Assembly (NCBI GenBank): GCA_013180625.2
Contig: SNVD02015047.1
Coordinates: 310,001 to 374,000 of the forward strand
Source: Boswellia sacra
Taxonomy: Eukaryota > Streptophyta > Magnoliopsida > Sapindales > Burseraceae
Length of the DNA stretch: 64,000 nucleotides
Direction of reading: 5' to 3'
Shown here: positions 5,429-48,857 of the stretch, in pieces
How the letters are laid out: each line of letters begins with the position of its first letter
Position numbering within the stretch: the stretch's first letter is position 1
The notes under the pieces: model-generated
Seen by the model: only the letters and a program-made list of their open reading frames with translations
What the model was told of the DNA's origin: nothing
Database searches by the model: none
Made by a program: the position numbers and the translations under genes

Positions 5429-7004
5429 AGTTGGCCACAACATGATTTTAGTCCATGCATCAGTAGTTCAGAGATACCGTAAAGTGTATAAAGTAAGATC
5501 ATCAATTTGTTTTTTCTTTTTGTTTCTTAATTTGACAAAGAAGCGAATAGTTATTTAACTTGTGCACATTTTCAGGCGAAACAAATGGGAAGGATTGGGA
5601 TTGTCCTAGATATTACAAGGTATGAACCTCTAAACAAAAATCAAATTGACCAACTAGTAGCTCAAAGGGCAATGGCCTTCCATGCTGGATGGTAAAATGT
5701 TTACTCCTTAATGATCTTCTACTAGTATCGACACTATAGTATTCTATTAAAAGAAATCGAAAGAGGTACATAATCTTATCATTGTACATTTACATATGAA
5801 TTTAAGTTTTTAAGTTAAATGATTTCTTAATACTATAAGAAAACTAAAATAATCTAAAAGTTTAGTGTTCAATTCTTTTAGGATAAGGCCATCTTAGAAA
5901 TAGTTTAAATCATCATTGGGGCGTGTTGCACCCTTATCTATAGGTCAATTAGCTTCTTAAACTATATATCTTATGAAAATGCCAAATTATACATAGTTTT
6001 AGAATTTAATTAATAGAAATGAAGATCTGTACTCTATTAGCATTAGATCAACTTAATGGAAATACAAAATCATATATTTATCGTGATGTAGGTTTTTGGA
6101 TCCCATTGTCTACGGTGAGTACCCAGAAGTAACACGATGCAGTTTTGGCCTTAGAGTACCATGGTTCATCGAAGAAGATAAAAAAATGGTGAAGGGGTCA
6201 ATGGACTATTTGGGTATTAATCAGTATAGTTCTACCTATGCACAACATCCAATAGATCTGTTTCCTCTGATTTATCGTCCAACAAAAGGGGAATAAGTTG
6301 ACTCACTTGATATGGAAGAAGAGTTTGACGAACTTCTTGAAGAAAAAATAACAACGGGCCTGTCACGTCCTCCAAAATTATTGGGCTACAATTATGATAG
6401 AAATGTTGAAACAACTAGCAAGACTTCTCTTAATTCCTTCTGGGAAAATAAAAAATTGAAAAGAAGATTATACTTCAATTTCACCTTGATGTATAATTCT
6501 TTTCACTTTTGCAGATGAGAATGATGGAGAGCCGATTGGTGCACATAAGTTATTTATTCTTTTATCTTAAACAATGCTTCTTTTTCATAAATAGACACAC
6601 ACACACACACATATAGAAACCACACTACATATATAGGCAAATTACCTTATTTCAAAAATTTAGCTTAACTCTATCATGAAGTGAAATTTGCAGGCAGATG
6701 CTGTCTGGTAGTACAATGTACTACAATGTACCATGACGTACCTTTGGGTATGTACAAGGTTTTGATGCACATTAAAAGTAGTTCCTCCTGTTGTTATCAT
6801 AGAAAACGGTAAGTTAATATCGAATGTTGATTAATTAAGTCAAATTTTTAAAGCTTCCACTAAATAATGGGGATGGACTTTGACAATTTTGAATGGAATA
6901 GAGGATACACTTCAAGGTTTGGCATTGTTTATGTTGAGCGCAAGGGCTTGAAGAGGTATCCCAATTTGTCGGCTTATTGGTTCCAAAAAATGCTCAAAAA
7001 ATAA

Positions 7005-7661
7005 TTAAGCTTCTACGCTATCAGAATCAATCTTTGATAATCTTTAAGTGACTAATTATATGCTATAATAAGGGAAGTGGTCATGTTGTAATAAGTATCA
7101 ACCCTCATAGAGTTGAGAGTTGATCTCTTACAAATAAATTATCTACTATGCCTTCTACTCTATTTTCATTAAGATGTTATATTTATCTTATATTTACTTA
7201 TAAGATATAATTAATTATCAATATGAAGAGGACATCTATAAATAATATTATAATGGGTCAGGCTAATGGGACTTAAATTTTTAACTTAAATATAAGCACT
7301 AACTAACTATCATTCATCCCAATATTATCTAATGGTTGATAGGGAACTTAAAACTAAGATAGTGGACATCACTTGCACTGATTTATTTCTTAATTATCTG
7401 AAAAACAATTTTCTTTTTTCTTTTCATCATGTTCTCCGCTTTTTATCTTCACCAAGCAAGACCTTACGACTCTTTTAACATCAAATTCTTCCTTAAACAA
7501 AATTGATTTATTAAGAAAGAGAAAATAAAGAATAAGTTGTTTGAAATTCATGAATGACTTTCTAAACGTTTATGGGTTTTATTGTAAATCTTGCATTTTT
7601 TTTTCTCCTAGATCTTTTTTGCAAGTCATCTCGAGGCATTGAAACACATCCAAGCAATTGG
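7005..7661. other. 3' flank of beta-glucosidase pseudogene 1 (duplicated unit)
   Basis: No gene seen. The stretch is clearly homologous to 42,677-43,349 downstream of the second beta-glucosidase and ends exactly at the CACTA insertion. It supplies the flanking sequence that proves the insertion site. Confidence 0.85.
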
Positions 7662-7679
7662 CACTACAAGAAAAAATGT

Positions 7680-8220
7680 CATATTTGGCGGTCAAAAAAA
7701 CGACACCAATGGCACCGTCAAATATAGTCTATTTGGTTATATTTGGTGGTCGGTCAAAACGCCAAATATAATAACACCGATATTTGTCACATAAAAGCGC
7801 TAAGTATAACGGCAAAGATACAGTAGAAAAAATTACATATTTGTCACTTTTTTTGTCAAATTTGTTAAGTTGAAACGGTCAAAATTTTTGAATTGCAACA
7901 TATTTATCGCTTTTTACCCAACAAATATGGTTAACTTTTTTAATTTTGTCATATTTGACGCTTTTTAAACGATAAATATGATTTTGTAACGGTTATTTTT
8001 TTGAATTTCATCATATTTGGCACTTTTGAACTGATAAATATGATTTTGTAACCGATGATTTTCTTAAAATTTTATCATATTTGATACTTTTGAACGATAA
8101 ATATGGTTAATTTTTTTGAATTTTTGCATATTTGGCGCTTTTTGAATTAATAAATATGATTATATTTTTGAATTTCATCATATTTGACGCTTTTTGAATT
8201 TGAACTGACAAATTTTACGA
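7680..8220. repeat. CACTA left subterminal repeat array
   Basis: About eight degenerate repeats of roughly 65 bp, each with ATATTTGRCRCTTTT followed 15-25 bases later by GATAAATATG. In CACTA elements, arrays in this position bind the TnpA-type protein; binding here is inferred. Confidence 0.75.
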
Positions 8221-8624
8221 TAAAGCAATTCTAGTAGTTTTCCAATAACATAACTGTTTATTGATGAATATGAATATGATGTAAAACATTAGAAAGAAAA
8301 AGTTCTGTTCAATTCACGAAGCATTACAGCATATCAGTCTAGAAATTAATTAATGCTTTCATAACATTTAAATTATTCAGTTGTTTATCAGCAAACCATA
8401 CAGGAAAGCTGCTTGGGTTATTGAATCTGAACCTAGATTTTGACAGTATACAATTCTTCAAGTTTTTCAAGAGATAAAAGCAAAAGAGAGAACTGCTTTG
8501 TTAGATTATATAGAATTACAAATAGCATAAGTACAACCACCTATAAAACATCATAATCCATGTTTCATATTTGTTGTGAAAGAAGCAGTTAACCCATTAA
8601 CCAGACGATTATATTAATATTTTA

Positions 8625-9120
8625 AAGTAAACCTGAATTGCAAATTGTCCAGTCCCTCTAGCAGTAGCTGTAACAAGCACTTTGTTTCCAGATTCCATCT
8701 TCTAGTGCATGGGTTCATGTGAGTGGGCATGGATGTGGAAGACTCTAGACTAGGATTTGACCAATATATAAAACACACCTTTTCTAAAGCAATTGATGCT
8801 GTTAGCCCAGAAGTAAGCATGGCAACAACTTGTGGATCTGCTTTTGGAACTGGAAGGATGTGCTTTGAAGGAAACTGTCTCATGGAAACAATCCATAATT
8901 GATGAGATAATTATTTGATTCAACAGTTTTATGAGCACTCAAATGTAAAGACTTGAGGACATTTATCAAATCAACCAGTGAAGCAACCTGTGGTAGACAA
9001 ATTCAAGGATAGCATACCATTTGATATTCAGCATAGCCCCCAAATATCATGATGGCAGCAGGAGTGCCAACTTTAAAGTCACTAACAAAGTCCTCTACTG
9101 CTGCAATTATTCCTACTGCT
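8625..9120 (-). pseudogene. Captured fragment of NQR/ZADH2-type quinone oxidoreductase
   Basis: Three consecutive exon pieces on the minus strand: about 9003-9117 (AVGIIAAVEDFVSDFKVG, then FGGYAEYQM), about 8781-8889 (FPSKHILPVPKADPQ, then MLTSGLTASIALEK), and about 8630-8690 (MESGNKVLVTATARGTGQFA). These match the GroES/Rossmann junction of medium-chain NAD(P)H quinone oxidoreductases of the plant NQR or ZADH2 type, where the glycine-rich nucleotide-binding motif normally reads VTAAAGGTGQFA. Introns are retained, so genomic DNA rather than cDNA was captured. The N-terminal half and everything after the first Rossmann strand are absent. It cannot make an enzyme. Confidence 0.78.
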
Positions 9121-9397
9121 TGCAAGGTAAATCATAAGGAGCAATAATTTTACAGTACTAAGATTACCAACCACAAGATCAACCAAAGGATATCAACTAC
9201 TTAAGTTCCAGCATTGCACCATGACATTCAAATATAATTTATTCACTGCAAAGACAGCATCAAATGGCAGATAAGAACTAACACTGTCTTTGATGCCAGA
9301 GAAATAACAGCCTAAGCTGAAATTAACCTGTCCATTGTCCACAAACTGGCCTTGTTATGCATGCAGAAACAAATGGTAGTAGTTTCCTAAACTCTGA

Positions 9398-10191
9398 TTA
9401 ACTGTTAACAAATAGTGAAAATAAGGACAAAATATCTAAAACCACAGTATCAAAAGAGTCAATTTTGAAAAGTTCTCAAGTAACCAGAGTGATAGAAATG
9501 ATGAGCTGGACCTCTCAATACAACTTGGGAGAGAAATGGAAACCATCTATCAAAGGAAGGGAAATCATAAGTTCCTTTATGATACTATCTTTTTAGTCTT
9601 TTCTTTACTTCTTTGATGTAGTTCACAACCAGAAAGCTTGTAATTTAACAGTGAATAGAAGAGGCCACTACATAAGCTGCTTTTCTGACCTCCAAGAGGA
9701 AAAAGAAAGGTAAATCTTGTAGTCTTCTTTTGACAGCAAGGCTATAAAAAAATGTCGTAAAAGGGACTAATGAATTAACACCACAAGAGCAAAGAGGAGA
9801 AAACAAGATTGCATCAAATTAACGAGCTCTATAGTTTTTTTCATATGCTCAGCAAATACAAGAGATTATGACTTAAAACAATTTTTTTTGAGCCATTCAG
9901 GCCACAAACAGAAAGTGGAGCAAGGAAAAGGAGGTCACAGCCAACAGGAACTCTTACTTTTAAATAAATAACTGCAGCAAACAAAAAAAGGATTGCTGAT
10001 AATCACAAAAACTGTGATAATATGATGGTTCACATCACATACAACTACAAGAAACTGAGAAATTTCATGGCTCTTTCCCCTGTCTAGATTTGCAAGAAAG
10101 GCAGCAAAACGAACTTATAGTAACACATTTCTGGGGAAAAAGACCTCCATAAATAAGCTTGAATTGACTATAAGATTTCTTTTCCACCAAT
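9398..10191. repeat. Internal direct repeat, copy A (no SINE)
   Basis: About 794 bp that recurs at 12,671-13,684 in the same orientation at visibly high identity. Copy A keeps the unoccupied SINE target CTTGAATTGAC near 10,158-10,168. It also overlaps the 3' side of the captured O-fucosyltransferase exon 4 read-through. Confidence 0.88.
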
Positions 10192-10209
10192 ATATACCAA
10201 TATTCTACT

Positions 10210-12656
10210 TGATAACCTTTTATTTTTTTCGTTTTTCCATTTTTGCGAATTTCTGGTATGCTTTCGACAATGCGTACATCATATCTCAGTGTCTGAATAA
10301 AATGCTCAACATCATAGATACCTTGGAAACCACTGTACATAACAAAATAGTGTGACTGCACTTATCCTATCAGATGAATTGTAACAGATTTTATCAGAAG
10401 TAAAATAAACTTAATGAGCATCTCAAAAGTAGATGAGAAAAAAAAAAGTATAATGAAGGAAAATATATCTTGTGTAATCCTTTCTAAATTACATGAATGA
10501 TTGATACAATTACGATCAGATACACTTTACATAAAGAAATTATTGCAAATTGTACAAGGATCTTTTGTTATTTGCTAGTTCAAGATTTAAGATACAAATC
10601 ACATAAAGATCTAAATCTAGAATAAATTAGTTGATATGAAGAATATTTAAAAGAAACTTCAGTCATAATTCAAAATCACTTACAAAAAGAAAAACATTTA
10701 TTACTTTAAGCGGAAAAAAGGCACGAATATAGATTTATAACCAAACAGCCAACAATCTTCACTGAGATGACTAGGAATTATAGAAAAAGATATAATCCCA
10801 TTCACTTGAAAACCTAAATAAATTGCATTGCAAAAAATAAAATGTGTAGTACAATTTTTACAAAAATAATGGGAACTTCTTATCATAGTTGATACACTTT
10901 CTTCCTGTAAAATTTTCCTTGTATCCAAAATTAACCCATCAAGATTCAGCAAACACACTTCTATATCATTTTGGTCAGGGAATCAGGGTTATAATCACAA
11001 GTTAGCCATTAATACATGACATGCAGCATGATACATCTCACAAGAGACAGCTTCAAATGTATCTTTTTATGCTCAAGACTCTCAAACAAGATCAAGTGCA
11101 ACATTCTCATACATTACTATTATATGATTAGAGTATTAAAGTCATATCTATATATTCAGTTATTTCTCATTTAAATATACACCTATTAAGAAAAGGATCA
11201 TATAAGAACAACTTCCTTCACTAAATAGGAGTTATAGCAGCTTTCAAAAGCAATTTGCCGTGCATCTAATCCAGAAAACATAATGTTCAAATAACAAATG
11301 TTGTTTTACTTAACAAATTTGTACACACTACCATGTAAGAGATTGCTGCATAGAAATTAAAACTAGTGCAAAGCAGCAGTATATTTCAGACCACAAGAAA
11401 AAACAAATAAACGAAGAGACTGAAAAGATTATACCTGTCATCATGCCAGAAGGAGTTTGCATCCAACTCAGGCATCACAAGTGTCGCATTCATGATTCGT
11501 GCAGCAACAACAGCATTATAGATCTAGAAATCCATAAGAATTTAAGTTAATTACACAAATTAAGTCCATCAACCAGGAGGAGAAAAAGAAGAAGAAGAAG
11601 AAGAAGAAGAAGAAGAAGAAGAAGAAGAAGAAGAAGAAGAAGAAGAAGAAATTCATTAATAATTGAATGATTTAGTAGCGATTCTTGATGGATTGAGTCA
11701 CTCTTGCAATTTTACTTAACATGTAACTTTTGTGTAAGATGTATATTTACTTTTGAGCACAGACAAAGAGACTGTCATTAAAAGGAAAGAGAAGATAGAA
11801 GAATTTATCTCTCTTTTTTGGTATGGATACATTAGTCTCTCTATCAGTCAATATAATTCTTAAAGATAACCAGGCATAAATATAGTCTATGATATATTCT
11901 TCATGAATAGATACAAACTGCATTATGTTGTTGATTCAGACCACCATTACAACGAACATGAAGATAGCCATTGGTCTCTTTTAGAGGAGCTGCAACAACA
12001 TAAAAGAGCATAGGACAAATTTATAATCGAAGTTTGCCAAAATGCATAGAACTCAATAATAAATTTCATTTCATCCAATCTACTAGTGACATTTTCTTCA
12101 GCCAAAATTAAAAACATACGAGGCCAATTGGACCGTGGAGCAGACGATGGCCTCCAACCATTGGAATTAGCACTTTCCCAAAGTTCTTCCACATTAATCT
12201 GCTTAAAAATGGCAATAACAAATGACATCGCCAGAACAATTAGTAATTTCAAGCAAAGATAATTTTTTAAAAAAAATCAAACATACCTCCAACTTATTAC
12301 AATTCAAATTTCCAGGTTACTCTCTCATGTTCGATATCACTCACAACTACCCTCAATTTTCAGTATTATTTCAAATTCACATTTCCAGATAACATGGAAA
12401 TCAAAGATTCAAAATTTCCATTTTCTCAGCAAACAAACACTGTTTGAGCTAACAAACAAACAAACTAACCAACCTTGGAAGGGGAGGTAGACCCACGACT
12501 TTCGGTGAGAGTGGCCGAGAATAAGAGAGAAAGGGTGCAGATTAAGAGAACAACAACCACAATCATCAGCTTCCCTACCAATCCCCTCACTCCTGGTTGC
12601 TTCGCGTGCAGTCTGTGGTGGCCAAGGCCAGGCCTGCAAAGAAACGCACAAATCAA
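10210..12656 (-). pseudogene. Captured fragment of plant O-fucosyltransferase family gene
   Basis: Four exons in correct order on the minus strand. Exon 1, 12,474-12,656, has a basic start and a hydrophobic segment (GKLMIVVVVLLICTLSLLF), the type II Golgi anchor of the family. Exon 2, about 12,120-12,198, reads INVEELWESANSNGWRPSS. Exon 3, 11,435-11,522, reads AARIMNATLVMPELDANSFW. Exon 4, 10,210-10,332, reads GFQGIYDVEHFIQTLRYDV. Exon 3-4 junctions have GT-AG signals. The part between exon 2 and exon 3 that normally carries the glycine-rich RCNGG motif is missing, as is the C-terminal half, so no active enzyme is expected. Members are putative GT106-type Golgi glycosyltransferases. Confidence 0.85.
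11587..11650. repeat. (GAA)n microsatellite
   Basis: About 21 GAA triplets in an intron-like stretch of the captured O-fucosyltransferase fragment. Confidence 0.95.
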
Positions 12657-12670
12657 TGAAAACTAAAACA

Positions 12671-13684
12671 ATTAACTGTTAACAAATAGTGAAAATAAGG
12701 ACAAAATATCTAAAACCACAGTATCAAAAGAGTCGATTTTGAAAAGTTCTCAAGTAACCACAGTGATAGAAATGATGAGCTGGACCTCTCAATACAACTT
12801 GGGAGAGAAATGGAAACCATTTATCAAAGGAAGGGAAATCATAAGTTCCTTTATGATACTATCTTTTTAGTCATTTCTTTACTTCTTTGATGTAGTTCAC
12901 AACCAGAAAGCTTGTAATTTAACAGTGAACAGAAGAGGCCACTACATAAGTTGCTTTTCTGACCTCCAAGAGAAAAAAGAAAGGTAAATCCTATAGTCTT
13001 CTTTTGACAACAAGGCTGAAAAAATGTCGTAAAAGGGACTAATGATTTAACCCCACAAGAGCAAAGAGGAGAAAACAACATTACATCAAATTAACGAGCC
13101 CTATAGTTTTTCTCATATTCTCAGCAAATACAAGAGATTATGACTTAAAGCATTTTTTTTTGAGCCATTCAGGCCACAAACAGAAAGTGGAGCAAGGAAA
13201 AGGAGGTCACAGCCGACAGGAACTCTTACTTTTAAATAAATAACTACAGCAAACAAAAAAAGGATTGTTGATAATCACAAAAATTGTGATAATATGATGG
13301 TTCACATCACATACAACTACAAGAAACTGAGAAATTTCATGGCTCTTTCCCCTGTCTAGATTTGCAAGAAAGGCAACAAAATGACCTTATAGTAACACAT
13401 TTCTGGGGAAAAAGACCTCCATAAATAAGCTTGAATTGACTTTTTTTTTTGTAGCCGAGGTGTCCGGGCCAGCTTACGCACACCACAACTAATCCTCGGG
13501 GGAGACTAGCGCGACCACAAATTACTGTCACGATCTCCCGCTTACCTCATGGGGAAAGGTCATTGTGAAGAGTCGAACCCAGGACTTCACCGTTGGCCTT
13601 GCCAACTCCCTCCTGAGCGGCCCTTACCACTTGAACCAACCCATTGTGGGTCTTGAATTGACTATGATACTTCTTTTCCACCAA
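12671..13684. repeat. Internal direct repeat, copy B (contains SINE)
   Basis: Second copy of the 0.8-kb segment at 9,398-10,191, lengthened by a SINE and its target duplication. It lies just upstream (on the minus strand) of captured O-fucosyltransferase exon 1, so the element has duplicated part of its own cargo. Confidence 0.88.
13441..13651 (-). mobile_element. SINE insertion (tRNA-type)
   Basis: A 211-bp insert flanked by perfect 11-bp duplications CTTGAATTGAC (13,430-13,440 and 13,652-13,662). The plus strand begins with a T run, so the element is on the minus strand with a poly(A) tail. Reading minus, GGTTCAAGTGGTAAG near the start and GGTTCGACTC about 60 bases on look like pol III A-box and B-box regions. 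The homologous copy at about 10,158 has the empty site. Family resembles plant Au-like SINEs; the family name is inferred. Confidence 0.85.
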
Positions 13685-13862
13685 AATGACAACAAAATTC
13701 ACATGTAATTTACGATCCCAAATGAAAAAGTCTCACAAACTACGGAGATTTTCTTTATGTTGAATTTCCTGAATTTGGAAATTTAATAATGTAATTAGCA
13801 ACCCATAACATTATAGTGACACATTATCATACTAAATTAATCTGACATTTAAAACAAGTTAC

Positions 13863-14399
13863 CTGCCAGTGGAGCCTCTTCCCAATTGACATTATCATCT
13901 CCCTCATCCTCTTCACGTTTAGACTTCATGCCCACTTGATGATTAGAAGACAATCCAGAGGGACCATCAGCAATGGTTATGTTTGAAAGTTCAGGTTGTT
14001 TCTTAGCAGCTTCTTCTAGTCCCTGTTGTTTCTTAAGTAGAGCAACATAATAAGCTTTAATATACTCATCCTGCAACATGAGTAAATATGTTCTACATTG
14101 AGCAAATGAGATGGAGAAAGAAAGAATCCAGATCACAATAAGAAAAGTAATAATCTCATTGCACTAGCCTGTATACTCTGTTTATCATCTTCAACAGTAG
14201 ACTTCTTGTCGTCTGAGAATCCTCCAGCCGCTGAACTCCCATCCATCTTTGACTCCTGCTTGACCTCTCCACGTTGTTCCTTTGTGAGATTCATCCCTTG
14301 CTTGATCATCCAAGGTGACAAAATTTTCAGAGAGGTACTTGCAGTTTCAAATTTGACATCCACATCCTTGACTTCACCACCAGCAAAGGCAACTTCAAC
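13863..14399 (-). pseudogene. Captured fragment of TFIIE alpha (general transcription factor IIE large subunit)
   Basis: Two exons on the minus strand. Exon a, about 14,169-14,399, encodes KILSPWMIKQGMNLTKEQRG followed by a Ser/Asp/Lys-rich linker ending SVEDDKQSIQ-like. Exon b, 13,863-14,070, encodes DEYIKAYYVALLKKQQGLEE and later MKSKREEDEGDDNVNWEEAP. This is the central to C-terminal linker and acidic region of plant TFIIE alpha, the TFIIH-recruiting subunit; the N-terminal winged helix and zinc ribbon are not here. The intron is kept, but the sequence after exon a is CAG/GCTAGT, a GC instead of GT at the donor. A partial, non-functional copy. Confidence 0.75.
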
Positions 14400-14559
14400 C
14401 TGCCAAATCCAATTGACAATTGCTCACAAACAATCCAATCTAATTTAATTGTACAATATGTACAACATCTGACAATATTACGAGGGTAAAGAAAAAATTA
14501 ATTAGTACCAAATCTCTTAGTTTGTGTACACCTCTTTCTAAATAGCAGCTGCTGTTTGG

Positions 14560-14640
14560 CATGTGGTGGATGATAGTATGCTCGAACAGCAAAATCTGAA
14601 TGCGAGCTTTCTGCAACAAGTTGGAATAATAAGCAAGCCA
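14560..14640 (-). other. Short coding-like stretch, unrecognised
   Basis: On the minus strand an open stretch reads SHSDFAVRAYYHPPHAKQQL and on. It has coding-like composition and sits between other captured exons, so it may be one more captured exon. I do not recognise the family. Confidence 0.25.
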
Positions 14641-14699
14641 AGCCAGGCGTTAAATAAACAAGAATTAAAGGAAAAGAAGCAAGAAAAGAAGTGGGAAAT

Positions 14700-16050
14700 T
14701 GGGCACTTACACTTTTGAGAAACCTAAAGGTCTGGTTCTACAACCATAAAAGGGAAATTGGACCACAAAAAAAGAATTAGAGAGAGAAAAAATGAAAAAA
14801 TATTATATCTCAACTCTAGAAAAATTGTAATTTTGGGTCTATTGATATGTTTTCATAATCATGTCTAAGTTTATGTTAATTTGCAGTACAAAACAAAACT
14901 CATATTTCAACAAAAGAATTCTAATTTAATTTTTAAAAGATTGTAACAAATATAACATTAACTATTTAAATGAAAAACAATTTTAATTTAATTTTAGTTA
15001 ATATTTTTTTTAAAGATTTGTAAGAAATATAATTTTAATTTTTTAAATAAAAATTAATTTTGATTTAATTTTATTAACTATTTAATTTTTAAAGGATTGT
15101 ATAAATATAATATGAACATTTTACATTTCAACAAGGGTAAAAAAGTTATATTAAAGGTAAAATGTTCTCTTACCACTTTTTTTAAGTGGTATCTAAAAAA
15201 ATAAACAAATATCCTATTAAGTGGTGTAAATTAAGTTATAAAAAGTGTTTAGATCTAAAAAGTGTTAAGTGATTGAAACATACATCGTCTAATAAAGACT
15301 CTTGATTCATTCCTAATAATATTCGTTTTGGTGTTTAATTTCAAATACACTTGTCCTACCCTCATATCCCTTTCGTGGATAGTACTAGTCATGTGTTGAA
15401 ATACATTGCTAATGTCTTATTTTGGTGCAAGACCTTTTACCTGATCGACTTTTAGAATGTGACCGTAATTTTTAGGCATTTGGCTAGCTTGAAGAGATGT
15501 AAGATGAGGAGTTTCTTACCCATACATATGGGATCTTGCCTCCAATATTTGATTCAAAAATATGTTACATATCTTCAATTAGATACTAAAATTGCTCTCC
15601 AAACAATAAGTTTAGTCTTGGGAAATTGGTTGTAGGATCGATGCTAACCTCACAAGGCCAATTTTTTTTTCCCTATAATCCGAACGAATTATACACCATG
15701 AGCCATATAATAAATTAATTGGGATAATTTAAAAAAAAAGTCAACTCATAGGTAAAAGCTAATTTTTTTCCTACTTTGGCAAAACACAAAAAGGTTTTAA
15801 ATATTCAGTATAAGTCCCTAAGCGAAGGTCTAATATACCAAAAGAACATGCACACACACAGACATAGAGATATAATCAGCAAGGATTCATCAATACTAAC
15901 CACCAAAAGAATGAAGGCCAAGTACATGTCCAATAGGAAGACAAGATTTCTGAAACCAAAAGAATAAAGGTCTAAGTTTAAGAGAGCTTATTAATGGAAG
16001 AAACTAAATTTAAGACCAAATTGAGAGAAGATGCTTCCAACCTTGTTAAG
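14700..16050. other. AT-rich interior of CACTA element without recognised genes
   Basis: Low-complexity AT-rich stretch (about 14,800-15,150) followed by sequence with only short chance frames. I see no captured exon I can support here. Confidence 0.5.
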
Positions 16051-16062
16051 AAGTTATTTCTG

Positions 16063-16440
16063 GCTAACGCGAAGTAAAAGTGTAGTAACATACTCCAAGG
16101 TCATGTAGTTCGCTTTGGAAAGCTTCTTCAGTATGTTTCTCATTGAATGTACCCTAGAACGGGCTCCTTTGATCTCATCGTAAAGGTCAAATGTTGTCAG
16201 TGGCTCGGGAAGACTTGCTACGTAGTATTTGGCTAGAGTTGCTACATCAACAGGATTTATGCCCTCTGGCAGTGATGCACTGGGATCTATAACAACAAAT
16301 ATATATATCAAGGGATAATATCACTCAGACTGGATAACAGTCAACTCTAAGGTGAAAACTCAAGATACCTTGATTGTATTAGAAACTAGCTGTTGAATGA
16401 CCTTCTTCTCTCCCTCAGCTTTAAACAAGTACTGTGAGTT
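16063..16440 (-). pseudogene. Captured fragment of RhoGAP-domain protein (At5g61530-like)
   Basis: Two exons on the minus strand. The upstream piece, about 16,369-16,440, reads GLNSQYLFKAEGEKKVIQQL. The downstream piece, about 16,063-16,288, reads DPSASLPEGINPVDVATLAK, YYVASLPEPLTTFDLYDEI, then SMRNILKKLSKANYMTLEYV and LLLRVSQK. The NPVDVA..LK.Y...LPEPLT core is the RhoGAP fold's effector-facing helix region. The arginine-finger loop is not present, so no GAP activity is expected. Family match is by motif; the Arabidopsis relative named is from memory. Confidence 0.78.
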
Positions 16441-16799
16441 TAGTCCTATAACTCATAGAAATCAATAGTTAAACTCTAAAATGTATGTATATTATAAATA
16501 ATATAGTGAAAAGTACTAATTTCTTAGAATTCTGATATGAATCACTTGTTAATATGAGGTAATCTGCGCATTTGACCAAAATATATGGAACAGGCTATTG
16601 TTGTTGGTGTACAGTAACCTCAATTGGGACTCCAAATACTAAGGATAAAAACAAAATAAGAAGAATACAAGCAACTGTCACAACACATGAAGCAATGTAA
16701 AAGCATGCTAGGCATTAGGTCACTTTCTTGCGACAACTAAACCTAGGCATAAAGACAAAGGAAATAAGCGAAAGATCAAAGAGTGAAAAGATAAATTTG

Positions 16800-16914
16800 A
16801 ACAAGACATACCACTAAATATTGCAAGAAAATCAGGAGACGTGTAATCCAGAATTGGAGGATTATATTCCTCATACATACTAAACCATGGAGCTAAAGGG
16901 TGAAGAACTAGCAC
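16800..16914 (-). other. Coding-like exon, unrecognised
   Basis: Minus-strand frame reads LVLHPLAPWFSMYEEYNPPI then LDYTSPDFLAIFSG, followed by a possible GTATGT donor. Amino-acid content looks like a real exon captured from some host gene. I do not recognise the protein. Confidence 0.3.
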
Positions 16915-17756
16915 ATCTACTCAACCATTAGCTTCTTTGCCCAACCAATACAAACTAATGTCAGTTCAACAATGACTAGTTTCCACCAGACAATGAAATT
17001 CACAATACAATGCACTTGCTTTCTCTTGGAAATAATAAAGCTCCAGTCCTTCGGTCAAAAAACTTGGAAAAAGTGGCAAGCCTTTTCTCTTATCACCTAA
17101 ATGTCTCTTAATTATATAGCAACATAAATTCTAACCAACAAGTATCATGCACAGACTTGCCCAAAATCTATCCTTCTATGCTAAATCAAAAATCTCATGA
17201 GAATTTGACTACATTATAGCTCAATTTGGAACATAACCATTATTCGATAAATGAAAGCTACTGCCTCTATTCTAAAGAGAAATTATAGAAGCATAAAATT
17301 AGGGCTAGAGATTTGAATAGAAGTACCTGAGATTTGTAGAATCCGAAGCAAGAATCAAGATTTCTCTGTTCTAATTTAATTTTGTGAGAATAAGATCTGA
17401 GTCAAAGAGGGAGGGATTTTTTGCTTTGTTTATCTACATTAATTTATTATTAAAGTATTAATCAAATTTATGAATCAAGTATACAGGAAACTCAATCACT
17501 TATTATAGAAAGTGGTATTTACTTTACATATCACTATGAACCTAGTACTTGTATTTCTAATTTTCACATGTATAAGAATTGAGAAAAGAGCTGAAAAAAA
17601 ATGCAACAAAACAATTCAGCAAGTAAATCAGGATCACCTTCAAATTAATAGAATTGATTATCATTTGGAAACCTTCTGAAATTTAATTTGAAAAGGAACG
17701 ATTATCCTTGTTTCTTTTGCTAGGAAAAAGTAAATATTAAAATGAAGGATACCAAG

Positions 17757-18328
17757 GAAACAGACTGCTGCAACTCATCCTCCCTTCTCCTCACTTCAGA
17801 GGTCCTTTCTAACATCACTGCTATTTGAGCTTTCTTCTATTTAAAACAATTCTGGAGCGATTCTAGTAGAGAAAGAACAAATAATATGCTTTGACTATTG
17901 CAGCAGTTAAAATACTTCAAAATCACTCTATACAATCAATGCAAGCAAAGTTTTAAATTAAAAATAAAGAGAAAAGATAATGCTAAATATAATTTCTCCA
18001 TTTCGCCTAAGATAATATGATAAGCTTTACAAGACCCAAAAATCTACAGGACTACCACAAAAGGGTGGGTTCTCATCGCCTAATATTCGAAACTACCAAT
18101 CATTAGTTCCTACATTTAAACACAGTGCCAGACTGAACTCTCATCAACTAACTAGTACTATTATGATGTGAACAAATATAAAAAGATAGATAATATGCAC
18201 AAATGTGTCCCCACAAAATGTTTATAACTCACAAGTTTTGCATCAATTTTAGACTGGCAAGCAGGGATACGATCTTTTAGCTTTCCAATCTTCACAGCCT
18301 GTTCCTCGAGCTGTTTTTCCATATCATA
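17757..18328 (-). other. Two coiled-coil-like exon pieces, unrecognised
   Basis: On the minus strand about 18,232-18,324 reads MEKQLEEQAVKIGKLKDRIP then ACQSKIDAKL before a GTGAGT-like donor. About 17,757-17,850 reads QIAVMLERTSEVRRREDELQ. Both have heptad-like spacing of Leu/Ile/Val among charged residues and may be successive exons of one captured coiled-coil gene. The protein is not recognised. Confidence 0.35.
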
Positions 18329-18498
18329 TACCCATGACCAAGCAAGCTTTATTCAATTGTTCATAAATGCTTTGCAAAAGATCATTAACTTGATGAAGAA
18401 GTGTGGCCTTGAAAAAGAACTGAATAATAATAGATGCAGAACTGAATAATCGAAGAAAGAAAAGCTCTAGTGATGAAGTTGATGAAGAAAGAAAAGCC

Positions 18499-18702
18499 TT
18501 AGTGTCATAGAACTTGAGGAAGTATCGTGACTTGGGCACTGACAACTTCTTTTCAAGAATCGTAGCAATTGCAGAACTCAGTTTTTTGTTCACATCAAGG
18601 TTAAGGCCACCGATGGACACCAACTCATCAAAGACTACTGGTTGCTCGGTTCCACCAAATGACATAGGCACCGATCTCTTCAACACAACCATCACATACT
18701 GC
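18499..18702 (-). pseudogene. Captured exon of MIF/D-DT-like protein (MDL)
   Basis: A single minus-strand exon encoding QYVMVVLKRSVPMSFGGTEQ, ELVSIGGLNLDVNKKLSSAI and KKLSVPKSRYFLKFYDTKA. This is the C-terminal two-thirds of plant MIF/D-dopachrome-tautomerase-like proteins, including the SIGGL..DVNKKL motif. The N-terminal exon with the catalytic Pro1 is absent and the usual ending after FYDTK is lost; the reading continues into unrelated sequence to about 18,324. Confidence 0.82.
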
Positions 18703-19364
18703 AAAATCGAAAACGAAAAAAGTTAATGGAACAAGAGAAATAAATAACTTGGTCGAGTAAACAATAATGGCATTCCTTCCACACTTGTTAAGGACTAATA
18801 ACAAAACAATCTATAGATTCACAAAGTGATCAAAACAAGATCACATTGCACTCACCTAGTACCATTGTGATAAGAATAGGGAAAGAAAAAAGGTTTGAGA
18901 CATTATCACACCTAAAATCCTTGTTTCCATATATTAAAGCTTTGTCAAACTAACAAACAACTCAGGACAAGATTGTATTCCTAGCTCACATAAATTAATG
19001 CAATTCGAGCAAAAAACAGGTCTAAGCGGGCATCTAATAATAATCACATGTAAACAACAAAAGAACCAGTTAAAAATCTGTCCTTATAGCCCACTACACT
19101 ATCTAAATACAACATTCAATTCATCAATAGAATGGTGAAATAATTATTATTTTTTCCATTTTACAAACAAAAAATCCCTGAACCAACAAAGTTGAGTTGA
19201 AACTTGAGGTCCCACTGCCATAATCTTTCTGGTTGTCTAAGGAAGCAGAGTTTGACTGGTTTGACCGTAACGCTTTCTTCGAATGTAAAGAATCCCAGAA
19301 AGGGAACTCCAACTCCACCACCAACCTTAATCCCAGTTCGACTTCATAGAGATTCTCATCGACT

Positions 19365-20210
19365 TTGAAGTCCAAAGCCTCCATCCTTGGGTTGCCGAAG
19401 CCCCAGAAAAGTATCGTTGCTACCAAGTCCAAGAGGAACTGTAAACCGATGAACACTCGCTGGTTCCCCAAACGCTCCAGTTCGACTCTCAAATTGAATG
19501 CTGCTGTTGTCGAACCCTCTTCTCCCAAGGTCTCCTGCATGGGACGAGTGAGATCCAAGAGGGATCGCCGTAGATTGAAGAACTGTCAACACTCCACTTT
19601 CGAATCAGACCCTGTCAAGAACAAATCGAAAAGGAAATGTAAAATCGGATTTTTTTTCCAGTTTTCGAGCAATATTTCAGTCCGGCCTCAGGAAAAGGAC
19701 GGATACTGAAACGTGGGAGACTTTATTTTGTTAGATTGGGCTAATGCGCCCTTTTATTTTTATTGTTTGGGTGATCTTGGCTATGTTGTAGTTGGTTTTG
19801 GGCCTATACGCAATCGTTTTGTCTGGGGCCTTTGGCTTTATATTCTGTTTATTCGTTTGAAGCTTTTGGGCTTTGTTATTTTCTTTTGGACTTGTGAGTA
19901 CTAAATACTCTTCTTGGGGTATGCCCCTCGTATATTGTACTATCTTTTTTCTTTTTATGTGAATAGTAATTTTTTCAAAAAAAAGTGGGAGACTTTGAAA
20001 GATTCATCGTCGACGTCAAGAAAGGGTTCGACCATCATAAGTCACGACATTCGCGATAGGTTGCCGCCAGGTGACATAGACGTGTCACCTAGGAGGACCG
20101 TGGCGACAAGCGAGCCGAGAAAGAGCCTGGACAGCGAGCCGATTGGTTTGGGTGGGATGAAGTGGTTCACATCGGGTAGGAGGTCGGATGCCTGGGCTGT
20201 TGGTTTGGAA
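19365..20210 (+). pseudogene. Captured plant-specific basic protein fragment split by a LINE
   Basis: Plus-strand frame, opposite to the other cargo. The first part, 19,365-19,709, reads SPKVSCMGRVRSKRDRRRLK and is strongly basic. The second part, about 19,985-20,210, reads WETLKDSSSTSRKGSTIISH, RKSLDSEPIGLGGMKWFTSG and RRSDAWAVGLEG. The two are separated by a 260-bp LINE insert with a duplicated target, and even without it the frame is shifted. The SPKVSCMGRVRSKR and GLGGMKWFTSGRRS patterns look like a conserved family of small nuclear or membrane-associated plant proteins of unknown function, which I cannot name. Confidence 0.5.
19725..19984 (+). mobile_element. 5'-truncated LINE 3' end
   Basis: A 260-bp insert flanked by perfect 12-bp duplications GTGGGAGACTTT (19,713-19,724 and 19,985-19,996) and ending in a short A tail. 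The composition (T/G-rich, ending with CCCCTCGTATATTGTAC then AATAGTAATTTTTTC) is that of a plant L1-type LINE 3' untranslated end. It disrupts the captured plus-strand gene, so it inserted after capture or came with it. Confidence 0.8.
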
Positions 20211-21168
20211 GGCACACACTATTCAAAGATAAGAGATATCCACTATCACGGAGAGCCAAAATTTCATTGTTCACAAGCCACCGATTGATAAGCGAGGGAA
20301 TGACGAAGTGAGGGCAAACGTTGAAGAGATGAGAGTGATGAATGCAGAAAGTAAATAGCGCAAATGAGTTTCATTTTGAGTGGCTAGGGTAAGAAAGAGG
20401 GAAATATTAGCTACTTTTATATGAGTGGCAAAGGTGTAAATTAGAAGAAATCAGTAAGTGATAAATATTGGGCAGAGGCGAGTTTGACTTTTGGAGTAAA
20501 GTTATATTTGACTCTTTCTTTGAAAACCGGCAAATATATAAAATGCAAAGTGATAAATATTCTAAAAATTCTGGTAATGTGGTATTCGATTGAAAGGAAT
20601 TAAAGAATCACTTTTTTTTTCCCTAAAATTGATTTGTAAGATATTGAAGGCTAATTAATTTCTTGCTTCAACCCAAACAACTTTTACTCCAAAAAGCATT
20701 CCACGAACAAAATTCACTTGAGATTCGAAATACAAGTAGTGATGGAAAATCATTTGTATTCATATCGCACTTATTTTTTTTTTTGTTGGTTCCTGATATG
20801 AGGTTTTTTTATTGTATTTTATTTTTATTTATTATTTGCAGTTTTAGCTTTTCCATTAAAGTCAATTTAGTATTGGATTGAAAAATAAATAGAAGCTCTT
20901 CTAGTTGGATACTTATATATACAGTGGCATCATGTGAAAAATAAAAATAAAAATTCATAACCTCACTTGAATCATAAAAATAGTCTTGAGATATTTGGCT
21001 TAATAAGTGTCCTATTTGATTTATTAAAAATTAGAAATGGGGTTCGTTTATTTTCCATCACTTTCTTGGCACGACAACCCAAACTTTATTCTTAGCTCGT
21101 CACGTGGTCTACTTTTTTAATTATTACATTAGAATGTTGCTTGTCTCTGTTATGCATGTTTTTATCTT

Positions 21169-21978
21169 GTTAGAATATTAGGCAATAGAGGATTTGTTTC
21201 TAGATTAGAACTAAAACAAATAGGGATTTGTATCAAACCAGAAAGTTGAGTTTGATTGTAATTTGTTTTAATTGGATAATCTAGGTTACTCATAGTTTGA
21301 CAAGGAAACTGAATAGAAAGAGTTTTAGTTGTATTTTTGATCTAGCAATCATGGTTAGACTAGGAAAGAAACTCTTGGCCCTCTATAAAGTCTTGTATGT
21401 ACGAGTGTAGAGATATCGAGAAATCAATCAAGATATCGAGAAATTGATCAAGTGGAAAGAAGACAGTAATAAACGTTTTAGGAATCTTGGGAGACAATAG
21501 GGACATCAACATTTGGGTGATCTGAGAAGTTACGATTCGAGTCATTAATCGTCAGCAAGATCGTGATATTAGAAGCTACGGTTTGGGATAGTAAACCATG
21601 AGTATAGATCGAGTACTAGTGAAAGTTCTTCTCTTTTAATCTTTCCTTGGGAATATATATCATAGATTGGTAGTAATCCTGGGATATATACATAGGAAGG
21701 CTGTTAGTCTTTCCTTAGAAGCATATATTGAAGATTAGTAGTTATCTTGTTGATATGCATAAGAAGGCTGTAAAGTTAAATTCTTGTTATTGCATTTGAT
21801 ATTTTTGTAATTCTCTTTTATTGTTGATCGGAATAAAGCTGCTACTGAAATATCCAAAGTGAACGTATGCTTAATTGGCTGAACCACTATAAATCCGGTG
21901 TTCCTATCTTCTTTATTTTCTTGTTCGTTTTCTTGCTTGTGGTTTCATCATAATTTTGTCAATATCTCAAATTCAACA
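21169..21978 (+). mobile_element. Probable solo Ty1-copia LTR
   Basis: Starts TGTTAGAATATTAGG, ends TTCAACA, and its last 100 bases (GGCTGAACCACTATAAATCC and a T-rich run with TTGTTCGTTTTCTTGC) look like the R/U5 end of a copia LTR. It lies within sequence absent from unit 2. The flanking pentamers TATCT and CTTTC do not match, so target duplication is unproven. Confidence 0.5.
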
Positions 21979-22384
21979 CTTTCACGAAAAGCCCAAAATT
22001 CACAATAGTGTCTTTAATAAATTTCAAACTATGAAGAAAAGACATAGTTATAACTCTCTTTGTTGCAAATCTAAGCTTTGCCACAAAGCAAAGTTAAATG
22101 CATTGATAATCATACTTTTGGAGAACACATAAAACTACAACTTTAACCGCTTTTGCATGGTATGCTTTTATTTCTTGTGCTTTTGAAATTACATATTTGC
22201 TGCTTATTGACCAAAGCATATTCATCAACATATATAGAATCATAGACATAGGACTTGTGAAGCTTTTGCATTAAATAATCCAAGCTAACAAAGTGTTAAT
22301 CTTTGAGTAAGATAAGGTATAAGGAAGAGTAAGAAGAGTTTTGGTCGATTTTCATGTGTTGGTATATATTTGGCACGATAGGAA

Positions 22385-22690
22385 GTATATGGTGCTTTAT
22401 ATGAACTTCAAGTGATTCTAGAGGAAGCATAAAAACACTAAAGAATGATGGGGAGATTGCAGTGTTCATTCTAGGATTCAAGATACCTAGAACTTTTGAC
22501 TTTTCTGAGCAACATGAAGATGGGTTGGCTAGGAGCATGGTTGAATTTCTATCAACTATTAGAACAAGTATAGTTGTCATGGCAGGCCAGGAACATTCGT
22601 TCCTGCAAAAACACGAAGATCAGCCTCACAACATCATAATTCCCTTAGAGTTGCAATTCTGATTGTCAGGGCTTATATGGTATAAACATC
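22385..22690 (+). pseudogene. BRO1-domain (endosomal targeting) gene fragment, unit 1
   Basis: Plus-strand remnant of exon 1 of a plant BRO1-like domain protein. The frame reads FILGFKIPRTFDFSEQHEDG then ARSMVEFLSTIRTSIVVMAG, matching the family's start (VYVPGLRIP..., then VERL.ALRTRIVVMA). The first codons are off-frame and stops precede it. The counterpart in unit 2 is at 44,300-44,680. The sequence after CAACAT lacks the intron and second exon that unit 2 keeps, so this copy suffered a further deletion. Confidence 0.65.
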
Positions 22691-38437: not shown

Positions 38438-41400
38438 ATGGCTATCCCTCAATTGTTTTCTCCTTGTAGCTTTATCACACTATTATTAATATTGCTTGCT
38501 GTTTTGAGGTGCTTTGCAAATGCAGCAGAGTTTGATTTGGACACTGGTGGATTGAGTAGAAAGAGTTTCCCACAAGGTTTTGTTTTTGGGGCTGCGACTT
38601 CTGCATATCAAGTAGAAGGAATGGCGCTCGAGGAAGGCCGAGGACCTAGCGTTTGGGACCCTTTTGTTCGAACTTCCGGTATAATCAAATAATAATATTA
38701 CATGCATTAATTGATATATTTGATTGTTCTATACATAATCATCTTAATCTTATTTTGTTGCTTTCATTTTCTTCTAATTGTGGCTACATTTTTTTAATAT
38801 ATCTGACACAGTTTTTTTTTTAATTTTTATTTTTTTTTGACAGCTGATAAAATTAAGGATCAATCTACTGCAGATGTTGCAGTGGACCAATATCATCGTT
38901 ACAAAGTGAGAAATATCCACATTATACTTATATATATTTTAAAAGAAAACAAAACTCATTTCAAATATCATAGTAAATGAATAAAAAATGAAAAACAATA
39001 TAAAATATTATATAAATTGCAACATTTATTAATAACATGATAAAATAGATCACAAAATCAAGCAAATTTTTTTTTCATATTTATATAGTATTAAATTAAA
39101 AGTTGTTCTAGATGCACCAAAATAAATGATATATCTTGACACCTATGGATAATTAAAAAAAAAATCAGATTTTTACACTATATATGTACCTCTCTCAATA
39201 GTTATTTATTACAAAAATTACCTCAAAATTAATATATACCCATATTCTCAACACATATTTTTATTTGCATTTACAAATTTATTTAATTCTTCACCTAAAC
39301 ATTTTGAGAAATCAAATTTTAGAAATCCACAATGATTCTTCAAGTTGGAATCTAGTAGTTGTGGAGATTTAGATTTTGACTTCATGTACGGTAAAGACTA
39401 GTTCTCATTTTTCTTGATTTATTCTTCAGATATATATACATACATACATACATATATATGTATATGTATGTATGTATGTATTAAATTGTATCAAATTGAG
39501 AGGTGTAAAATCTTATCAAATTGAAACAGTTCACCTTTTTTTATATTTGATTGGAGTGTAGGGATGATAATATGAGATTCTAACAAAACTTGATTGATTG
39601 CACAAAACTAAGAATTTCATCTTCTTGTTCAATTGGTTATCTTTAATAATCATGTCAATAGAAGAGATTTGTATATATAATTAATTTCATTTTAGGGTAA
39701 ATTAATAATTCATATGTTCTTTTAAGTATAAGTTTTCAATCTAAGGATTCCTTGTCACCTAAAATACAAAATTAAATTAATTTGTTTTATATAAGACACT
39801 TATTAAAAGTTTCAATCAACATTACTATTCCAAATATATATATATATATATGTACTATATAATGTAATCAAATGCCTCTTTTATTTGGTTAATTTATTCT
39901 TCTGATTTTACAGGAAGATGTTGATATTATGAAACATTTGAATTTTGATGCATATCGGTTTTCAATTTCATGGTCTAGAATTTTTCCAGGTAATAATTAA
40001 TCTCTCTTATTATGCCTTTGGATTACAATAATTCTGTGGCATTAATTTTTGACCCCCTCCTATGCGTGTCATGTCATTGTTAACTAGATGGAACTGGCAG
40101 AATCATTAATTGGAAAGGAGTTGATTACTACAATAATTTGATTAAATACTTACTTGAAAGAGGTAACTATCTTTATCATGCATGAGAGAATCCTAATTTT
40201 CGAAAAAAAAAAAAAACTTATTTACTTGTAGAGACTTCTAATTATACTATGTCAATGAAGAGAAGCATATATGAAGTGTTTAAACTTTTCCATGTAGGTA
40301 TCACCCCATACGTGAATATTCATCATTTTGATCCCCCAGATGCTATTGAAAAGAAGTACAAGGGATGGTTAAGCCACAACATAGTGTACGTACAAAAGAG
40401 TGGCGCTACGTTTGGACCTGGAGGGGCAGTTGCCCCTCATGGATTTCAAAAATTTTTTATTTGACAACTCTATATGTTTATATGTTTAATAAAAATATCC
40501 TTAAATGTTTAAAGATTTATGATAAGAATACCCCTTGTTTATAATTTTAGAAAATAATCTCCTACGTATTTAAAAAATCGGAACTTCAATAAATATTTTA
40601 ATTAGCCTTTTTCATAGGTAGTTCTAAATTTTATTTTTGATTAAGTTTGCTACCCCTATACGTGTATGTTATATTATTCTATAATTTATAGGAAACGAGA
40701 TCAATGCGATGAATGTATTAGTTAAACATTTTGATACATATTGTTTCGAACTCTTCAGGGAAGATTTTACTAATTATGCGGACTTCTGCTTCAAGACATT
40801 TGGAGATAGAGTTAAGAATTGGTTTACACTTAATGAACCAAAAGTAGCAACTATTTTTGGTTATTGCGATGGCACAATGGCTCCTGGAAGATGCTCTGGA
40901 CAACCATATGGTACCTGTGAGGAAGGCTCGTCTGCAACTGAACTTTACACAGTTGGCCATAACATGATTTTAGCCCATGCATCAGCAGTTCAGAGATACC
41001 GTAAAGTGTATGAAGTAAGATCATCAATTTTTTTTTTATTTTTTGACAAAGAAACGAATAGTTATTTAACTTGCGCACATTTTCAGGCAAAACAAATGGG
41101 AAGGATTGGAATTGTCCTAGATATTACGTGGTATGAACCTCTAACCCAAAATCAAACTGACCTACTGGCAGCTCGAAGGGCGACGAACTTCCATGCTGGA
41201 TGGTAAAATGTTTACTCCTTAGCAATCTTCTACTAGTATCGACATTATAGTACTCTATTAAAAGAAATTGAAAGAGGTACATAATCTTACCGTTGTACCT
41301 TTACCTATAAATTTAAGTTTCTAGCTAGGTTAAATGATTTCTTAATACTTAAAAAAAAAAAAAAATCTAACAGCTTAGTGGTCAATTCTCTTAGGATAAG

Positions 41401-42676
41401 GACATCTTAGAAATAGTTTAAATCATCACTGGGGCGTGTTGCACGCTTATCTATAGGTCAATTAGCTTCTTAAATTATGTATCTTATGAAAATGCCAAAT
41501 TATATATGGTTTTAGAATTTAATTAATAGAAATGAAGATCTATACTCGATTAGAATTAGATCAACTTAATGGAAATACAAAATCATATATTGATCGTGAT
41601 GTAGGTTTTCGGATCCCATTGTCTACAGTGAGTACCAGGAAGTAATGCGGTGCAGTGTTGGCCGCAGACTACCACGGTTCACCAAAGATCACGATATGGA
41701 CAACATCGTTTCTACAGTGTTGAAACATCTTAGAATTTAATTAATAGAAGTAATGCGGTGCAGTGTTGGCTGCAGACAATGGGATTTAAATTAGATCCCA
41801 TTGTCTACAGTGAGTACCCAGAAGTCAACTTCTTCTAGAAGAGAAAAAAATGGTGAAGGGGTCAGTGGACTATTTGGGTATTAATCAGTACAGTTCTACC
41901 TATGCACAACATCCAACTGATCCATTTCCTCCGATTTATCGTCCAACAAAAGGAGAAGAAGTTGACTCACTTGATATGGAAGAAGAGTTTGACCAACTTC
42001 TTGAAGAAAAAATAACAACAAGCCTATCACGTCCTCCAAAATTATTAATTGGGCTACAATTATGATAGAAATGTTGAAACAACTAGTAAGATTTCTCTCA
42101 ATTCCTTCTGGGAAAATAAAAAATTGAAAAGAAGATTATACTTCAATTTCATCTTGATATAGAGTTTCTTATAATAATAATTTCTTTTCACCTTTGCAGA
42201 TGAGAAAGATGGAGAGCCAATTGGTGCACATAATGTATTTATTCTTTTATCTTAAACAAAGTTTCTTTATCCCGTATATACATAGGGAGAGCACATTTTG
42301 ACACAAGATTAGACGCACACGCAGAGAGAGACCCTCCTGTCGTTATAACAGAAAATGGTAAGTTAATATTGAATGTTAATTAATTAAGTCAAATTTTTAA
42401 AGCTTCCGCTAAATATAGAAGAAATATTTAAAATAAAATTGAAACTAACATTGTTGATGGACGTAATTTGGTCCATCAGGCATGGATGACGCTGGAGATA
42501 TCCTGTTTCCATTTGGAGTGCATGACACGGCAAGGGTGAATTACTATAAAGGTCATCTGGGTGCAGTGAAGGATGCAATTAAGCGTGGAGCAAATGTTGT
42601 TTATTTTGATCGCAAGGACCTGAAGCGGTATCCCAAGTTGTCGGCCTATTGGTTCCAAAAAATGCTCAAAAAATAA
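38438..42676 (+). pseudogene. Beta-glucosidase pseudogene 2 (GH1, BGLU44-like)
   Basis: Better preserved. ATG at 38,438 and a signal peptide ([14 protein letters not shown]). Exons 38,438-38,678, 38,844-38,905, 39,914-39,989, 40,088-40,162, 40,298-40,385, 40,759-41,014 and 41,087-41,202 join in one open frame with GT-AG introns; lengths 76, 88, 256 and 116 are those usual for plant GH1 genes. The acid/base motif TLNEP is at about 40,835. Exon 8 (from 41,605) is scrambled and hits an in-frame TAA at 41,738-41,740. A reading frame resumes at about 41,839 (MVKGSVDYLGINQYSS). Exon 10 keeps only PPVVITENG (nucleophile Glu, about 42,330-42,357). Exon 11 (42,480-42,600) runs straight into the end of the last exon, losing the GYFAWSLLDNFEW region. 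A truncated transcript is possible, but no active enzyme. Confidence 0.9.
40386..40758 (+). other. Intron 5 of beta-glucosidase pseudogene 2, with TE-like core
   Basis: A genuine intron position (donor GTACGT, acceptor TTCAG; exons of 88 and 256 nt on either side keep frame). The interior begins AAGAGTGGCGCTACG and has GGGGCAGTTGCCCCTC, and near 40,650 GCTACCCCTATACG, suggesting a small decayed transposon with TACGTACA/TACGTGTA as a weak 8-mer flank. The identity of that element is uncertain. Confidence 0.5.
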
Positions 42677-44300: not shown

Positions 44301-44680
44301 TATGTCAACTTCAAATGACTCTGGAGGACGCAGGAAAACACTAAGGAACGTTGGGGACGTTGCAGTGTTCGTTCCAGGATTCAGGATACCCAGAACTTTT
44401 GAATTTTTTCAGCTACATGGAGATGGGTGATCTAGGTGCTTCGTTGAATGTTTGTCAGCTCTTAGAACAAGGATAGTTGTCATGGCAGGCCAAGAAACAC
44501 CCGTTCCTACAAAAACAAGAAGATCAACCTCACAACATGGATAGTTGAATTATCAGTAGGCCTAGCCGCTTGTAGGTTTTGTTGGATTTTTGTTTAATAA
44601 TGCAATTTGACCTGTTCTTATGCAGGAGGATCCATATTGAGTGATCTTCAGCAACCGCAAGCTCTTGATAAAAAATGATA
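44300..44680 (+). pseudogene. BRO1-domain (endosomal targeting) gene fragment, unit 2
   Basis: Exon 1 (about 44,300-44,546) reads STSNDSGGRRKTLRNVGDVA, VFVPGFRIPRTFEFFQLHGD and LSALRTRIVVMAGQETPVPT, with a TGA after HGDG. Exon 2 (44,627-44,680) reads GGSILSDLQQPQALD. The pattern matches the N-terminus of plant BRO1-like domain proteins (At5g14020-type), which act in endosomal sorting. The rest of the BRO1 domain is absent. The 3' half of this fragment is duplicated at 48,565-48,773 on the other side of the second CACTA-like element. Confidence 0.72.
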
Positions 44681-44761
44681 TCCCATTATTTACTGATTAA
44701 ATAAAAAATATATAATACTTCAGCGAACTAAGGTGGATAAGCAAAGATGCAAATTGTAAAA
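44468..44761. repeat. 293-bp direct duplication, left copy
   Basis: Begins CAAGGATAGTTGTCATGG within BRO1 exon 1 and ends GCAAATTGTAAAA. Nearly identical (about 98% by eye) to 48,565-48,857, with the CACTA-like element between them. Confidence 0.93.
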
Positions 44762-45059
44762 AATATATAATACTGTAACAAAGAAGACTTTTTACGGCGG
44801 GCCAAAACCGGCGTAAAAATACTTCTACGGCGGTTGTGCGGCGGTTCACAATCGCCGTAAAAACAACCGCAGTAAAAGCTTTTACGGCGGTTTTAACCCG
44901 CCGTAAAAGACTTTTTACGGCGGTTCTTTTGTTCGACGCAAAAACAGACGACAAAACTATAACTTTTTTATGATAAACAGTAAACCGCCGTAAAAACACA
45001 CCCAACCGTCGTAAATGATTATCTCAAATTATTTTGCATCGACCACGAAATCGCCATAA

Positions 45060-48564: not shown

Positions 48565-48857
48565 CAAGGATAGTTGTCATGGCAGGCCAAGAAACACCCG
48601 TTCCTACAAAAACAAGAAGATCAACCTCATAACATGGATAGTTGAATTATCAGTAGGCCTAGCCGCTTGTAGGTTTTGTTGGAATTTTGTTTAATAATGC
48701 AATTTGACCTGTTCTTATGCAGGAGGATCCATATTGAGTGATCTTCAGCAACCGCAAACTCTTGATAAAAATTGATATCCCATTATTTACTGATTAAATA
48801 AAAAATATATAATACTTCAGCGAACTAAGTGGATAGGCAAAGATGCAAATTGTAAAA
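48565..48857. repeat. 293-bp direct duplication, right copy
   Basis: Right partner of 44,468-44,761, including the BRO1 intron and second exon. After it the original flank continues with GATGGGAGAAGC. Confidence 0.93.

Follow-up and report, generated by a model that had tools for sequence, protein, structure and literature searches.

The En/Spm-related elements of the Tpn1 family of Ipomoea capture host genes. The element described here resembles them in that respect, a likeness of description rather than one of compared sequences. The soybean CACTA element Tgm-Express1, as set out in the available text of PMC1947982, is 5.7 kb long and lies within an intron of F3H; it contains parts of both exons and introns from five host genes unrelated to one another, and splicing incorporates it into chimeric transcripts. 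Both are CACTA elements with exonic and intronic pieces of several host genes, but the present element measures 12.9 kb, holds pieces of at least six genes and lies outside a gene. Set against the available account of Tgm-Express1, a degenerate right end and nested retroposons are features of its own.

Pack-CACTA and other Pack-TYPE elements may each carry several loci, and locus number correlates with element width (PMC8903248, available sections). The present element shares with Pack-CACTAs host coding DNA and, on the left, the CACTACAA end; its right end is degenerate, and it differs from those sections' description in the single copy seen here, its internal repeat and the absence of an internal cluster of transposon ends. 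The mechanism given in print for Pack-CACTAs is fusion of neighbouring insertions, which would leave transposon ends between the cargo pieces unless these were deleted (PMC8903248; PMC13317346; available sections of both). Given the internal repeat and the lack of an internal cluster of ends, such fusion is not visible here.

CACTA elements of grapevine (PMC2528002) and Chenopodium (PMC8978399) also hold host gene fragments; in the excerpts of both papers these are single genes next to transposase, whereas here there are several genes and no transposase was found. In animals, gap-filling or FoSTeST Pack-TIRs capture sequence by template switching, and the excerpt of PMC8277862 leaves application to plant Pack-MULEs to be explored. 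The present element may share template-switch capture with these elements, which differ in being animal ones. Our literature search found no description of this particular element, which is itself new and is a large, old member of the gene-collecting CACTA class already known.

Borders and ends of the insertion

The stretch of Boswellia sacra DNA analysed here (the window, 64 kb) contains a tandem array of GH1 genes, with Pfam Glyco_hydro_1 matches at 6087-6296, 6864-7004 and 40685-41206. The coding sequence of the first copy runs to 7004, stop codon included, and a 12.9-kb insertion, 7662-20579, starts 657 bp 3' of that point. In a self-comparison of the window, the left flank (6925-7659) aligns with 42597-43347 in the sister locus at 85.5% identity, and the right flank (20583-21141) aligns with 43350-43912 at 84.4%. 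Because both flanks align there, the 12.9 kb lacks a counterpart in the sister, and the borders are therefore fixed independently of the terminal repeats. The features at the borders are as follows.

7662-7674, plus strand: left terminal repeat CACTACAAGAAAA, preceded by TGG at 7659-7661; sole exact match in the window
7676-8225, no strand: left subterminal array of CATATTTG(G/A)C...GATAAATATG-like units, from motif counts and self-matches
20431-20566, no strand: right subterminal region with weak similarity to the left array (score 34)
20567-20579, minus strand: degenerate right terminal repeat, 9/13, with CATTA in place of CACTA
20580-20582, no strand: right TGG of the target duplication; TTT in the sister
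43300-43400, plus strand: empty site in the paralogous locus, after the tandem GH1 copy

The left end is the sole zero-mismatch site among 60 matches to CACTACAAGAAAA with at most 3 mismatches in the window. The right end at 20579, read inward as CATTACCAGAATT, agrees with the left end at 9 of 13 bases, and TGG then follows. This agreement has a binomial P of about 0.003 at a fixed position, was the best of 22 positions tried (next best 7) and is of a kind frequent across the 64 kb; it counts as evidence because the sister alignment fixes that border.

The subterminal repeats that are expected of a CACTA element are strong on the left and weak on the right. The left 560 bp of the element form an array of CATATTTG-like units, with eight occurrences of CATATTTG in 7662-8250, none in the element's last 200 bp, one in its 12-kb middle and three in the 51 kb outside. 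When 20431-20579 was compared with the left array, its score of 34 was reached by 2 of 300 shuffles and by 6 of 500 real 149-bp stretches, and this result counts against well-kept ends. None of five left-end motifs forms an internal cluster: besides the single CATATTTG, the 12-kb middle contains no occurrence of two motifs and three scattered occurrences of each of two shorter ones. A Pfam scan that covered all 46 ORFs of at least 60 aa and 51 of the 185 ORFs of at least 35 aa revealed no transposase family in any of the former, a search in which short exons could be missed; such an absence is as expected for a non-autonomous copy. An Rfam scan of 7000-22100 found nothing.

The initial annotation had described a single insertion bounded by CACTA-type ends and a TGG duplication, with no visible transposase and with the pre-insertion site preserved base for base in the sister locus. 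The insertion itself is well supported by the exact CACTACAAGAAAA after TGG and by the missing 12.9 kb in the sister, and we likewise found no transposase in those 46 ORFs. Its account of the ends applies in full to the left one, the right one being degenerate. The sister site is indeed empty, and the flanks joined at one TGG align with it without an indel at the junction, but "base for base" was too strong: the sister holds one three-base unit, TTT, which differs from TGG at two of three bases. Since the flanks are about 15% diverged, these two differences are unremarkable.

Several other features were observed in the window. The right flank contains a further insertion (21142-22010, about 870 bp) that is absent from the sister, the self-comparison joining 21141|22011 to 43912|43914. 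The minus strand carries a Copia-type LTR retrotransposon (49074-54446); its end repeats, of about 568 bp, are direct and 94.7% identical, and it has matches to gag, SH3_retrovirus and RVT_2. Pieces of GLOX (glyoxal oxidase) lie on the minus strand at 57058-58365 and 62692-63189, their best named matches among 120 of 3607 listed being from Sapindales at 71-75%. The segment 29736-30234 is self-complementary and internally repeated, and perhaps consists of nested inverted-repeat elements. Finally, a 297-bp direct repeat, 97.6% identical, occurs at 44468-44764 and 48565-48860 and is matched over its first 71 bp by 22565-22634 as well.

Captured gene fragments

Judged by sequence similarity, the element carries pieces assigned to at least six unrelated host genes, so that host gene fragments between the ends, the hallmark of a Pack-TYPE element, are present from six genes. 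The cargo comprises the following.

8633-9119, minus strand: NQR/PTGR3-type reductase fragment, 3 exons and 2 introns (PDB 2wek, E 6e-13)
10209-12633, minus strand: O-fucosyltransferase (O-FucT) fragment with five exons, here called exons 1 to 5, and 4 introns (Pfam O-FucT)
13858-14399, minus strand: TFIIE-alpha C-terminal fragment, 2 exons and 1 intron with a GC donor (protein homologues)
16057-16638, minus strand: RhoGAP fragment with an in-frame stop (Pfam and PDB)
16812-16920, minus strand: exon-like piece ending at GT; no Pfam family match
18233-18380, minus strand: exon-like piece ending at GT, coiled-coil-like by eye; in Pfam WASH_WAHD alone, E 0.26, below cut-off
18498-18698, minus strand: MIF-like exon with an open frame of 67 aa (Pfam MIF, E 7e-09; PDB 8ap3)
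19185-20198, plus strand: sixth captured gene, an uncharacterised plant protein with an in-frame stop (protein matches and tblastn)

The NQR fragment is of the PTGR3/ZADH2 type, and its alignment to 2wek has a gap of 2 residues where the second pair of exons joins; in Pfam this fragment matched ADH_N alone, at E 0.18, below cut-off. Consecutive O-FucT exons matched the Pfam profile at 18-53 (E 1e-08) and at 52-137 (E 2.4e-05, where the 24.6 bits of this second exon fall below the curated cut-off of 31.5 bits). Against PDB, the joined O-FucT exons gave no O-FucT and one unrelated match at E 0.49. For TFIIE-alpha, the protein database returned 100 proteins of suitable length (all 100 listed), several of them named TFIIE alpha, the best at E 1e-54 and 71% identity; the fragment had no match in Pfam, and its joined exons had none in PDB. 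The RhoGAP exon at 16057-16286 matched Pfam RhoGAP at E 5e-13 and p50-RhoGAP in PDB at E 6e-06. The upstream exons and the stop presumably belong to the same gene, as its homologues suggest, and a frameshift is suspected on the same grounds. For the MIF exon, the PDB match was to the MIF homologue 8ap3 (E 3.5e-30). No source for the two exon-like pieces was found in Pfam.

The sixth gene covers about 80% of a protein of 259-296 aa, beginning at about residue 40-53 and ending close to the C terminus. It matched 617 proteins with E<=0.001, of which 120 were listed. Among these 120, the best E was 3.9e-78 and the best named matches were from Sapindales at 60-63% (Mangifera, Xanthoceras, Acer, Melia, Dipteronia and Pistacia), those at 62-63% being from the first four genera. 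The named matches of the sixth gene, TFIIE-alpha and GLOX are all from plants (120 of 617, 100 of 100 and 120 of 3607 listed, respectively, many of the entries being nameless). Taken by themselves, the best named matches of the sixth gene and of GLOX suggest a host that probably belongs in or close to Sapindales and is none of the species matched.

Nine introns were assigned to the named genes. Seven are GT-AG, the TFIIE intron has its GC donor, and the first RhoGAP intron fits no GT. The borders were picked by eye, and independent support comes from homologues or profiles that continue across them, as they do for NQR (with the 2-residue gap), O-FucT (profile 18-53 followed by 52-137) and TFIIE. 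Because introns are kept, DNA and not mRNA was captured. The reading frames of the RhoGAP fragment and the sixth gene contain in-frame stops.

These results agree with the initial annotation in its five named cargo genes (O-FucT, RhoGAP and MIF by Pfam, NQR and MIF by PDB, TFIIE-alpha by homologues), in the retention of introns and in the placement of all five fragments on one strand, the minus. The sixth gene, on the plus strand, was absent from it, as were the two retroposon insertions and the internal direct repeat described below. A strand bias of the cargo was considered and rejected, since 5 of 6 genes on one strand falls short of significance (sign test, two-sided, 0.22). The same annotation had considered multi-gene capture on this scale unusual, which was overstated: CACTA capture of five genes is in print for Tgm-Express1 (PMC1947982, available text).

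The internal repeat and the gathering of cargo

The O-FucT piece is accompanied by a direct repeat, and retroposons are nested at two places in the cargo.

9397-10197, minus strand: direct-repeat copy B, at the position expected for O-FucT intron 5; 96.2% identical to 12671-13441
12671-13441, minus strand: direct-repeat copy A, ending 37 bp before O-FucT exon 1
13442-13651, minus strand: SINE-like A-tailed retroposon in copy A with duplication CTTGAATTGACT (13430-13441 / 13652-13663); absent from copy B
19725-19984, plus strand: A-tailed retroposon within the sixth gene with duplication GTGGGAGACTTT (19713-19724 / 19985-19996); interrupts the protein match

The five O-FucT exons sit between the two direct copies, with B following exon 5 and A preceding exon 1, and the repeat places intron 5 sequence immediately upstream of exon 1. 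Aligned over 773 columns, the copies, about 800 bp long, differ by 27 substitutions and have 2 gap columns; beyond the SINE-like insertion, similarity can be followed by eye for about another 30 bp. Since that insertion is present in copy A only, it is later than the repeat. "SINE" describes its appearance: a tRNA finder detected no tRNA gene in 13442-13651, and Rfam gave no match there. Transitions account for 19 of the 27 substitutions, and 10 of these lie in CpG or CHG, a pattern that is consistent with methylation and silencing of the DNA but goes no further, the counts having no control for context. Separately, a long (GAA)n run occupies 11586-11650, inside O-FucT intron 3.

We assign a probability of roughly 0.88 to the reading that this is an old, decayed, non-autonomous Pack-CACTA of the CACTA superfamily, into which pieces of six or more host genes were taken up, with a filling at O-FucT that looks like one template copied twice and with subsequent decay. 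It fits because a left end of CACTA type coincides with a duplicated 3-bp target and a paralogous locus that is empty, because several unrelated gene fragments lie between the borders with introns kept, and because no transposase was found; the 9/13 right repeat, the weak right subterminal similarity and TTT in place of TGG in the sister are points against it. Such an element would once have been mobilised by transposase supplied in trans and would have landed 3' of the stop codon in one of the GH1 copies, presumably after its interior had been filled at the DNA level. At O-FucT, one template may have been copied twice, much as if interrupted repair synthesis had switched back to the same template. 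Later decay would have broken frames, admitted the two A-tailed retroposons and taken the right terminus off consensus. We infer that the element is probably no longer mobile.

An empty site alone has no power to separate insertion from deletion, and the stretch might be ordinary sequence lost from the sister copy. This is very unlikely given that the borders bear a CACTA end and a 3-bp duplication and that the identified pieces are partial genes. Among other carriers of gene fragments, Pack-MULEs are well known and have a 9-bp target duplication and long TIRs. Here the 9 bases beside each border are not duplicated and the element ends agree at 17 of their first 30 bases, which makes a Pack-MULE the least probable of the alternatives. 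Helitrons make no target duplication and have 5'-TC and CTRR-3' ends with a hairpin. Maize Helitrons do hold several host gene fragments (PMC1947982, available text), but the borders, which the sister fixes, show a 3-bp target duplication and an exact CACTA left end, and this renders a Helitron with captured exons highly improbable.

How a Pack-CACTA of this kind came by its cargo is a separate matter. The repeat is what one template copied twice would leave, whether through a switch of template while a gap was being repaired or through a tandem duplication that afterwards lost part of its length, and it may already have existed in the parental O-FucT gene. Alternatively, related elements inserted next to one another could have fused and so pooled their cargo, the repeat being one captured segment delivered twice by two fused elements. 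Fusion has a published model (PMC8903248; PMC13317346; available sections) and examples with a twice-repeated segment (group BB, in the former), and a repeat does occur in this element. Against it, the left-end motifs form no internal cluster in the 12-kb middle, a weak argument because the model allows deletion of internal ends, and the O-FucT exons stand between the repeat copies in the arrangement expected of one gene. We regard fusion as rather unlikely. Serial repair synthesis with template switching, in which one host gene was copied twice and neighbouring insertions were not fused, is the reading that we tentatively propose at less than even odds; the O-FucT junction would then be its direct record.

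The exons of this element resemble genes and are thus a trap for annotation. How DNA transposons acquire host genes is still argued, and six donor genes, a history that can be read in part (the repeat, then the SINE-like insertion) and an empty site for comparison make this locus a good test case, in which comparison of the junctions with the parent genes could separate template switching from fusion of neighbours.
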